From an uncultured Butyricicoccus sp. (GTDB lineage: Bacteria > Bacillota > Clostridia > Oscillospirales > Butyricicoccaceae): a stretch of DNA of 50,081 nucleotides. The stretch spans positions 1 through 50,081 of the forward strand of contig CALWMO010000002.1 in NCBI GenBank assembly GCA_944381965.1. Direction: 5' to 3'. Made by a program: the position numbers and the translations under genes. Below the pieces are notes generated by a model that ran no database searches, was not told where the DNA came from, and saw only the letters and a list, made by a program, of their open reading frames with translations. Position 1 is the first letter of the stretch; every line of letters starts with the position of its first letter. Positions 9,623 through 49,270 of this stretch are shown here, one piece after another.

Positions 9623-9650
9623 AAAAACAGGGGTTTTACCCCTGTTTTTT
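9623..9650. terminator. Bidirectional terminator between csrA and the ComFB-domain gene
   Basis: An 11-bp perfect stem, AAAAACAGGGG / CCCCTGTTTTT, with a 5-base loop TTTTA, begins right after the csrA stop codon. It has A and T runs on both sides, so it can end the flgM-csrA transcript on the plus strand and the parA-comFB transcript on the minus strand. Confidence 0.9.
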
Positions 9651-9654
9651 TATT

Positions 9655-10644
9655 TTAGTGATGAGGATTTTCATTTACAATAACACATGATTTCATCATT
9701 TCTACAGAAATAAGTCTTGAATATTTAGATGAATATATTCGTAAAATACCATTTTTTTGTTCGTCATCAATAACAACATATTTAGATGGTAAATTTGTAA
9801 GCGTTAATGCTTTCATGTCAGCTAAACAACGAGGACAATTACATGCAAGCATTTTTAATGAATACTTAGCTTCTTCTTCCACTAATTCCTGTATTACATT
9901 AACATAACGAACTGAGCGTTTACCATGTGCAGTTGCACCAAAATAACCAGTATTTTCTTGTGTGGATTCCGCTTTGTTTTCCACAGTCTGTGTATTATCG
10001 TTAGACTTTTCAGGCTCACCATTATTTTGAGCAAATAATGCAGCAATAGAATCATCAGATAAAATAGCATTAGAGTCTGGTTCAGAAGCAGGCTCAGAAA
10101 CATTTTCAGGTTCAGCAGTAGATTCAAGTGAATCTTCAACTTCAGGTTTGGTAGCACGTTTAATAGTTTGCTCCTCAAGCTCTAAGTTGCTCAAAAGGTC
10201 AGAACAAATTTGGTCTTCAAGGTGGGATTCCTGTTCACGCACATTTTGAAGTATAGGTACTACAGGTTGTGGTGCCGGTGGCAATTCGGCAGAAGTTTGT
10301 GACGTTTGTTCTTTTATATCTGATTGCTCAGTTTGTGTTTTTTCTGGTTGCTTTTCTTGACTATTTTGGGCAAATAACGTATCACTAGAATCATCAGATA
10401 AAGTTTCATTTGAAGCTTTAGTAGTCTCTGAAAGATTTTCAGAAGTAGTTTCTTTAACTTGATTTTGCTCATTATTTTGCTCATTATCATGTTTTGCAAG
10501 TAAATCTGCAATAGCATCTTCAGACATGTTGTTATTAGAATTTATTGTGTCTTGTGTATTTGTTTCTACATCAGAAACTTCATTGTCAGATTTAGAAATA
10601 AGATTTAATACTCGGGCAGTCTTATTACTGCGTTTTGGTGACAT
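9655..10644 (-). CDS. ComFB-domain protein with FliM-like motif repeats, ParA partner candidate
   Basis: I recognise only the C-terminal domain: residues 246-291 carry the ComFB pattern, with CNCPRC (C268, C270, C273) and NLPSKYVV. ComFB proteins of cyanobacteria have been reported to bind c-di-GMP and c-di-AMP. The first 17 residues are basic (MSPKRSNKTARVLNLI), like ParA-stimulating tails of ParB-type partners. Residues 20-240 are acidic, Ser/Thr/Gln/Glu rich and look disordered, but hold three related peptides: MSEDAIADLLAKHDN (40-54), LSDDSSDTLFAQN (82-94) and LSDDSIAALFAQN (195-207). Without gaps they align with LSQSQIDMLLNAA of the FliM in this window, the CheY-binding type of segment. 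A weaker copy may lie near 143-153. The start has a perfect AAGGAGG site. It follows parA by 18 bases. Function is unproven; a link between ParA and the motor or chemotaxis array is inference. Confidence 0.72.
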   Translation of the reverse strand: MSPKRSNKTARVLNLISKSDNEVSDVETNTQDTINSNNNMSEDAIADLLAKHDNEQNNEQNQVKETTSENLSETTKASNETLSDDSSDTLFAQNSQEKQPEKTQTEQSDIKEQTSQTSAELPPAPQPVVPILQNVREQESHLEDQICSDLLSNLELEEQTIKRATKPEVEDSLESTAEPENVSEPASEPDSNAILSDDSIAALFAQNNGEPEKSNDNTQTVENKAESTQENTGYFGATAHGKRSVRYVNVIQELVEEEAKYSLKMLACNCPRCLADMKALTLTNLPSKYVVIDDEQKNGILRIYSSKYSRLISVEMMKSCVIVNENPHH

Positions 10645-10662
10645 AGAATAAAAAACCTCCTT

Positions 10663-11430
10663 TTATTTTCTTTCACATAAGTTAACTATTTCATCAGTAA
10701 GGCTCATAAAATCAGCAGATGGTTTGCTATTTGGTGAATATGTTATAACGCTTTCACCATGTGCAGGAGCTTCGGCTACACTGACACTTTGTCTAATACG
10801 AGAATTAAAAACTTTTGTATTAAGTTGTGTAGCAATTTGCTCAGACATTTCTAAAACTTCACGGTTTAAGTTGAGTCGTGAATTAAATTTGTTAAGTAAA
10901 ATGCCGAGAACTTCAAGGTTAGGATTATAATACTGCTTAACCGTTTCTATTGTTTCTTTAATCTGAGTTACACCAAGTAAACTCAAAATTTCAGGTGCCA
11001 TTGGTATAATAAGTTTATTTGATGATACATATGCATTTACAGTTAAAAGACTAAGTGCAGGCGGTGTATCAATTATTATATAATCATAATTTTTAGCAAT
11101 ATGATTTAACTCACTTTTTAGCATATACTCTCTGCCTGCTTTGTTAAACTCAAGCTCAATACCTGATAAAAGAATATTAGAAGCTAGAAGGTCACAATAT
11201 TCAGTTTTACATATTGCTTGTTCTATTGCAATTTGTTTTTTAAAAACCTCATATAGAGTATGTGCGTTTTCAATGTCAACTCCAAGGCTGAAACCTAAAT
11301 TGCCTTGAGGGTCTAAATCTATAGCAAGCACCTTTTTTCCACGCTTATGAAGTGAAACTATAAGGGCAGCAGATGTTGTTGTTTTACCTACACCACCCTT
11401 TTGATTTGTGATAGCTATAACTTCTGGCAT
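10663..11430 (-). CDS. ParA/Soj-type ATPase
   Basis: This is a deviant-Walker ATPase of the ParA family, which positions DNA or large protein assemblies by ATP-dependent dimerisation on nucleoid or membrane. The 255-residue product has the Walker A motif KGGVGKTTT (K11 is the signature lysine), Walker A' in AIDLDPQGNLG, and Walker B in YDYIIIDTPPAL. The C-terminal part SRIRQSVSVAEAPAHGESV is typical of chromosomal and chemotaxis ParA. No MinD-like amphipathic C-terminal helix is seen, so nucleoid binding is likelier than membrane binding. No parB or parS is visible; the next gene is the ComFB-domain protein, probably its partner. Position inside a flagellar cluster argues for positioning of motility structures rather than plasmid partition. 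Confidence 0.88.
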   Translation of the reverse strand: MPEVIAITNQKGGVGKTTTSAALIVSLHKRGKKVLAIDLDPQGNLGFSLGVDIENAHTLYEVFKKQIAIEQAICKTEYCDLLASNILLSGIELEFNKAGREYMLKSELNHIAKNYDYIIIDTPPALSLLTVNAYVSSNKLIIPMAPEILSLLGVTQIKETIETVKQYYNPNLEVLGILLNKFNSRLNLNREVLEMSEQIATQLNTKVFNSRIRQSVSVAEAPAHGESVITYSPNSKPSADFMSLTDEIVNLCERK

Positions 11431-48247: not shown

Positions 48248-49270
48248 ATGTCAGAAGTTTTATCACAAAGCCAGATAGACATGCTACTTAACGCTGCACG
48301 CATGGGCGAAGTGGAAACAAGTAGTGAAGAGAAAAAGCCCGAAGAAAAAAAATATCCTAAATATGACTTCTATAGCCCGAAAAAATTTACACGAGAACGT
48401 CTTAAAATGATAAATAGCATTTTCGAAAGCTATGTTCGTGTTATTTCATCAAGTCTCAATACTATGCTTCATATGCTATGTGAGCTTGAAATAGATTCTG
48501 TAGAAGAACAACGATATTTTGAGTTTTCTAATGCACTTAGCGAAAGAGATGTATTAACTCTGGTTACAAATACCATGCAAACGGTTCCAGAAAGAGACCC
48601 CATATTATTCCATATCACCACAGGTATTATGATAAGTATGTTTGATAGAATGCTTGGTGGTACAGGTGATATTGATGGAGAGATAAATTCCGATTATAAA
48701 TATACTGACTTAGAACTTAGACTTTATAATGACTTTATACAAGAACTTGTAGGAGGTTTGTCAAGTGCATGGAAAAATTATATTAATATCGGATTTGGAT
48801 TTAATAGAGTCGAAGTAAACCCAACACTTGTACAGCTTATAGGTCTTGATGAAACAGTTGTTATAGTTGGTATAACAATAAAAACACCTGTAAGCAGTGG
48901 TAGATTTAGTATATGTCTTCCAGGAAATTTATTAAGCGATATTTTTGCCCAACTTAATAGAGAAACAGCAAGTATGCAACAGACTAGCCCTAAAGATAGT
49001 GAAGAAATTATGGATTATCTTAAGGGAACAGACTTAGAAATCACTGCAGAACTGCAGCATACAACGCTTAGATTAGAAGATATATATCATCTGCATGTAG
49101 GAGATGTTATAAACCTCGATCAGCCAAAGGATTCTAAAGTATACTTAAATGTCGGCGGAAAACGTTGGTTTGATGGCAAAATGGGTGTATATCAAAAAAA
49201 TAAAGCAGTCAAAATTGATAAAACATATTTCCAGACCGATATGGAAAAAGAGCAGGACAAAGGAGAGTAG
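48248..49270 (+). CDS. fliM: Flagellar motor switch protein FliM
   Basis: FliM is the C-ring protein that receives CheY-P. The 340-residue product starts with the CheY-binding peptide LSQSQIDMLLNAARMGE (residues 5-21), then a charged linker and the CheC-like middle domain (about 50-235, with GTGDIDGE). The C-terminal SpoA domain ends around 325 with LNVGGKRWFDGKMGVYQKNKAVKI. The ATG is 20 bases after motB; no fliL gene stands between. Its N-terminal motif is the reference for the repeats in the ComFB-domain protein of this window. Confidence 0.96.
   Translation: MSEVLSQSQIDMLLNAARMGEVETSSEEKKPEEKKYPKYDFYSPKKFTRERLKMINSIFESYVRVISSSLNTMLHMLCELEIDSVEEQRYFEFSNALSERDVLTLVTNTMQTVPERDPILFHITTGIMISMFDRMLGGTGDIDGEINSDYKYTDLELRLYNDFIQELVGGLSSAWKNYINIGFGFNRVEVNPTLVQLIGLDETVVIVGITIKTPVSSGRFSICLPGNLLSDIFAQLNRETASMQQTSPKDSEEIMDYLKGTDLEITAELQHTTLRLEDIYHLHVGDVINLDQPKDSKVYLNVGGKRWFDGKMGVYQKNKAVKIDKTYFQTDMEKEQDKGE

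Follow-up and report, generated by a model that had tools for sequence, protein, structure and literature searches.

FlhF is the protein that usually places the flagellum. FlhG, an ATPase of the MinD/ParA family, interacts with FliM/N via the N-terminus of FliM (PMC12826062), which also binds CheY (PMC6946799; PMC11528121). In the McdAB, ParAB, MinDE and chemotaxis ParC systems, a ParA-type ATPase is encoded beside the gene of a partner protein, and such partners make contact via a positively charged N-terminus that is basic and mostly disordered (PMC10241942; PMC12204374). ComFB of B. subtilis is an obligate zinc-binding dimer, the loss of which leaves DNA uptake unaffected. A cyanobacterial ComFB binds c-di-AMP and c-di-GMP with micromolar affinity (PMC12313861).

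The window analyzed here, a 50,081-nucleotide stretch of DNA from an uncultured Butyricicoccus sp., carries a gene pair with likenesses to each of these. As in McdAB, ParAB, MinDE and ParC, a ParA-type ATPase adjoins the gene of a partner with a basic, mostly disordered N-terminus; unlike in those systems, the partner has a C-terminal ComFB domain and the two genes sit in flagellar clusters. With FlhF/FlhG it has in common a ParA/MinD-superfamily ATPase within a flagellar gene cluster, but the pair genomes tested lack FlhF, the ATPase is Soj-like and not FlhG-like, and a FliM-like peptide is found on the partner and not on FliM only. The partner shares its fold with ComFB (4wai) and CdgR (8hja) and has cysteines that correspond to the four of the zinc site in B. 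subtilis ComFB, from which it differs by an added N-terminal motif, a long linker and a ParA partner. Repeats in that linker share with the EIDAL segment of FliM an L/M-S-x-D/E-x-I-x-x-L-L/F core and a predicted short helix, whereas they sit one to six times inside the disordered linker of another protein, and the window repeat has neither the Gln nor the acidic residue after Ile. No published case of a ParA–ComFB flagellar pair was found in the open-access literature searched; the ParA/partner kind of system is already known, and the adaptor type is new.

The gene pair and its ComFB-like protein

A first reading of the window from its sequence only had recognized a ParA ATPase paired with a ComFB protein, and both genes proved to lie where it had placed them, with Pfam matches to AAA_31 and ComFB. 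The features of the locus are as follows.

10663–11430, minus strand: parA, 255 aa, Soj/ParA-like ATPase; Walker A KGGVGKTT at 11377–11400
9655–10644, minus strand: comFB-like adaptor gene (open reading frame), 329 aa, with basic N-terminal motif, disordered linker, helix and C-terminal ComFB domain
10597–10635, minus strand: N-terminal motif KRSNKTARVLNLI, aa 4–16, proposed ParA-contacting peptide; K8, T9, V12 and N14 invariant among 39 homologues
10153–10248, minus strand: conserved long helix, aa 133–164; pLDDT 91–95 over aa 141–160; I146 and L150 invariant among 39 homologues
9664–9903, minus strand: ComFB domain, aa 248–327, by Pfam; pLDDT mostly 94–98; C268, C270, C273 and C320 invariant
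9625–9655, no strand assigned: inverted repeat, rich in GC and with a T-run after it, separating csrA from the comFB-like gene; resembles a terminator in each direction; recognized by inspection of the sequence

The two genes are separated by 18 bases, flanked by fliW/csrA and fliD, and oriented opposite to the surrounding chemotaxis and flagellar cluster. A scan for sigma-D-type promoters upstream of parA at 74 loci gave a signal no better than that of shuffles. The ATPase was matched by Pfam AAA_31 with an E-value of 1.4e-55 and has the deviant Walker A motif KGGVGKTT; its closest solved chain is a ParA family protein (8ray, E 2.5e-46), and Soj (6iub) was matched with an E-value of 5.6e-38. 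As regards a putative surface for binding the nucleoid rather than the membrane, basic residues are kept across the family at positions 185, 211, 213 and, partly, 236, while positions 214 and 217, which are Arg in 8ray, are not conserved as basic.

The partner was matched by Pfam ComFB (PF10719) over residues 248–327 (E 1.8e-10; 41.2 bits against a cut-off of 25) and fell below the cut-off of the ComFB competence equivalog of NCBIfam (NF052654; 17.1 bits against 120). Its four cysteines, invariant among 39 homologues and spaced as in the four-Cys site of B. subtilis ComFB, form a putative zinc site. A phmmer search of the PDB with the full-length protein returned no match, whereas profile and fold searches did: Foldseek matched the modelled ComFB domain to B. 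subtilis ComFB (4wai, E 2.7e-5) and to CdgR with c-di-GMP (8hja, E 9e-4, probability 1.00). In the model of the protein, helix 133–164 and the ComFB domain are confident, and a helix over the N-terminal motif (residues 8–18) is of low confidence. By homology, the domain would be a zinc-binding dimer and cyclic-dinucleotide receptor, and by analogy with the characterized proteins it is likely that the window protein senses a cyclic dinucleotide.

Distribution of the pair, flagella and FlhF

The same pair occurs in 13 further genomes (G001–G006, G022, G023, G030, G031, G036, G043 and G044). As in the window, fliD adjoins it in these relatives nearly always, and the interval between fliW/csrA and fliD is its commonest position. 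A contig scan across Clostridia identified it in Butyricicoccus, Agathobaculum, Flavonifractor, Lawsonibacter, Acutalibacter, Anaerotignum and Hominisplanchenecus, as well as in many unnamed Lachnospiraceae and Oscillospiraceae. Common to all members of the family are an N-terminal K-S-N-K-T-A-x-V-L-N-L sequence with small variations (the N-motif), a helix in the middle of the protein and the ComFB domain.

Among 116 distinct ComFB proteins, in which the contig-scan loci are enriched for the N-motif because it served as one of the search patterns, 67 combine the N-motif with an adjacent ParA, and both are absent from 37. Ten have the N-motif and no ParA by the rule applied; on inspection, three of these loci (L061, L102 and L104) do have a ParA, with a wider gap or an altered P-loop, and most of the others lie near a contig end. 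The two remaining proteins have ParA without the motif, one (L082) with a slightly different motif and the other (L020) as a separate pairing. A class-wide search, for which the full profile was used, matched nearly exclusively short frames of ~87–132 codons, the exceptions being long proteins in G000, G006, G250 and G318; the short ComFB proteins that were read have neither N-motif nor ParA. The N-motif and an adjacent ParA go together, ParA being a neighbor at nearly all loci that no contig end truncates, as with known partner proteins of such ATPases. The ParA/partner pairing suggested earlier is supported. At L049:7956–9324 (G065), a divergent ParA (33% identity) stands with a ComFB protein that has a different basic N-terminus; a flagellar gene cluster is not evident in the stretch read.

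The flagellar link drawn from the window agrees with the genomes: the pair lies in flagellar clusters, and among 99 relatives FliM is present in 15 of 15 pair-bearing genomes vs 10 of the 84 others (p 1.5e-11). In 216 Clostridia, 70 of the 72 ComFB-bearing genomes have FliM and the remaining two have FlhF. The competence name of ComFB may be misleading in this class.

FlhF was not found above the cut-off in any pair genome of two samples (0/15 and 0/16; the window genome is 69.5% complete, its sisters G003–G006 97–100%). In the class sample, the flagellated genomes with FlhF were none of four with the pair vs 83 of 88 others (p 4.5e-5), an anticorrelation that is clustered phylogenetically and that is weak among the near relatives alone (p 0.05); a few flagellated genomes have neither FlhF nor the pair. 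Against PF02154, FliM of the pair genomes scores mostly 113–130 bits, compared with 139–241 in most other flagellated Clostridia. Because the contrast is clustered and this divergent FliM is common to the pair genomes, a whole flagellar lineage may have been replaced, and the entire flagellar cluster of these genomes may be one lineage.

FliM-like repeats in the linker

The sequence-only reading had described three FliM-like peptides in the linker. All are present, as listed here with the FliM segment used for comparison, although the second has lost its Ile.

10483–10527, minus strand: FliM-like repeat 1, MSEDAIADLLAKHDN, aa 40–54; profile E 2.2e-9; modelled helix 43–51, low confidence
10363–10401, minus strand: FliM-like repeat 2, LSDDSSDTLFAQN, decayed, Ile lost; profile E 0.006
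10024–10062, minus strand: FliM-like repeat 3, LSDDSIAALFAQN; profile E 2.4e-12
48260–48298, plus strand: FliM N-terminal segment LSQSQIDMLLNAA, comparison sequence; motif also in FliM of relatives

When the repeat profile was run against five sister genomes, essentially only the comFB-like gene matched. Three repeat sets were distinguished: the window type of Butyricicoccus; MSQ[DE][DE]IE[KR][LM]LA in a Lawsonibacter-like clade (clade B), with one to six copies per protein; and a single LSQEDIERLL (L077; clade C). The form MSQDDIEKLLA of one lineage is nearly textbook FliM and, together with LSDDAIAALFAQN, is a candidate CheY-docking peptide. Clades B and C score 22–27 against the FliM profile vs ~10 for shuffles, and of 2000 column-permuted FliM profiles only 7 and 2, respectively, did as well (p ~0.002–0.004 for clade B). 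The window-type repeat resembles FliM in a permuted-peptide test (p 0.001–0.003) and the clade-B repeat (13/3000, p ~0.004), but when the window linker was searched whole with column-permuted FliM profiles, the result was not significant (460/2000; p 0.2–0.27). Taken alone, the window-type repeat is only weakly FliM-like, its likeness being modest.

Codons were counted over adjacent tandem units, with the register taken from the duplication, in three sister Butyricicoccus genomes and four that are Lawsonibacter-like; in the window itself the copies form no regular tandem. Within the 11-codon core, 28 changes are synonymous and 6 nonsynonymous, vs 52 and 152 outside it (odds 13.6, p 3e-10), and for Butyricicoccus alone the counts are 17/4 vs 18/77 (p 1e-7), with the qualification that within-gene comparisons are not fully independent and that we chose the core boundaries. 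Conservation of the repeat against a drifting background, a check that had been proposed with the first description, was thereby confirmed: in two lineages, purifying selection acts strongly on the 11-residue core, and the spacers drift. When the repeat label was placed on the tree of ParA and the ComFB domain, three changes were needed and three are forced by the starred branches; these are best read as three gains. In the model of the L067 protein, each of four repeats is a helix of 10–11 residues (pLDDT ~70–80); the CheY-bound FliM segment is a helix too (PMC11528121). We consider it unlikely that the repeats are low-complexity expansions lacking a specific partner, with a coincidental likeness to FliM. 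In favor of this alternative, unrelated tandem repeats do occur in several linkers of the family, and the window-type repeat by itself gives no significant FliM match when its whole linker is searched. Against it stand the selection seen in two lineages, which acts on the core but not the spacers, the good FliM matches of clades B and C, and the three label changes that the tree forces.

The homologue search suggested with the first description returned a large Clostridia family, whose members mostly lack the repeats and, with few exceptions, adjoin ParA in a flagellar cluster. That the repeats are the core of the system is not supported: the basic N-terminus and the ComFB domain are retained by most homologues but the repeats are not, one of the outcomes that had been named in advance as refuting. 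Since the FliM-like repeat is absent from most pair members, we regard it as an accessory.

In a PDB search with a profile of mixed clade-B and FliM peptides, 4iga ranked first through its FliM peptide chain (E 0.41), a match given no weight because the query itself contained FliM peptides. The protein at L065:2531–4276 has, in the same linker, a second tandem repeat, LPEGxxGWDENGQP, in five copies and a long EP run. At L063:2678–4258 are about six linker repeats of the DAIADALAQAVEPAQAN type, which bear a faint likeness to the window repeat and are without its Ser.

A proposed positioning system

On the reading that we favor with some caution, ParA and its partner make up a positioning system attached to the flagellar and chemosensory apparatus, with cyclic-dinucleotide sensing and CheY-docking repeats. 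By analogy with the systems described above, ParA and the ComFB protein very probably form a ParA/partner pair, and there is a reasonable likelihood that they position flagella or chemosensory arrays; the pair probably stands in the place of FlhF. The steps that we infer are ParA contact, nucleotide sensing, positioning and CheY binding. ParA would be the ATP-driven ATPase of the system, of the Soj (nucleoid) type. By analogy, the basic N-terminal helix of the ComFB protein, K-S-N-K-T-A-x-V-L-N-L-[IL], would contact ParA, its disordered linker would hold cargo-docking sites, and its C-terminal ComFB domain would sense c-di-GMP or c-di-AMP, the whole occupying the FlhF/FlhG place in these bacteria. 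In at least three lineages the linker would have gained short helical FliM-like (EIDAL-type) motifs, for which CheY or CheY-P is the most likely docking partner, and the docked CheY would be either tethered to the motor or withdrawn from it. CheY binding by the repeats, proposed from their likeness to FliM, is the most tentative of these steps, though quite possible. Relative to the sequence-only reading, the missing FlhF, the c-di-GMP-receptor fold and the recurrence of FliM-like motifs in other lineages are additions.

The repeats could instead be recognized by the ParA/MinD-type ATPase itself, in which case the ComFB protein would mimic FliM and thereby control its own ParA, for instance when motors are counted. 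The interaction of FlhG, itself of the MinD/ParA family, with the FliM N-terminus (PMC12826062) and the location of the repeats in the partner of such an ATPase would fit this alternative, which we nonetheless judge improbable: ParA is conserved in members that have no repeat at all, which makes the repeats dispensable for pairing, and the pair ParA is Soj-like and not FlhG-like. Moreover, no FlhG-like protein was seen in G318, a near-complete genome and the sole one with a full ParA/MinD inventory, which comprises three ATPases only (the pair ParA, a Soj beside a ParB-like gene, and MinD). Because no FlhG-like protein was seen there, CheY is the likelier repeat ligand in G318, which is itself without the repeat; the preference for CheY over FlhG is extrapolated from it to the repeat-bearing lineages. 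That the pair serves only to partition a chromosome or plasmid, or is left over from competence, and lies in a flagellar cluster by chance, is very improbable, for all that its ATPase is Soj-like and that the ComFB name comes from the Bacillus competence operon, since its flagellar neighborhood is kept across many genera, it tracks FliM, no ParB-like gene was seen adjoining it, and the genomes read encode Soj separately, next to a ParB-like gene.

If the positioning reading is right, it explains motor placement and counting in many flagellated gut Clostridia without FlhF, assigns the ComFB family, whose name comes from competence, a function in motility, and provides a natural example of a repeatedly gained mimic of a motor protein. 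A bolder version, in which, across a large branch of Clostridia, FlhF/FlhG gave way to a ParA system gated by a cyclic dinucleotide and the adaptor of several lineages evolved FliM-mimicking CheY-P docking motifs, we hold to be doubtful; were it true, one protein would join motor placement, the chemotaxis signal and the decision between motile and sessile life.

An EAL-HDOD gene and a CheV gene adjoin the pair in G318 and G022, which we count in favor of the positioning reading; EAL-HDOD and CheV neighbors of the pair were noted at L197:7739–9935 and L045:6149–8409.
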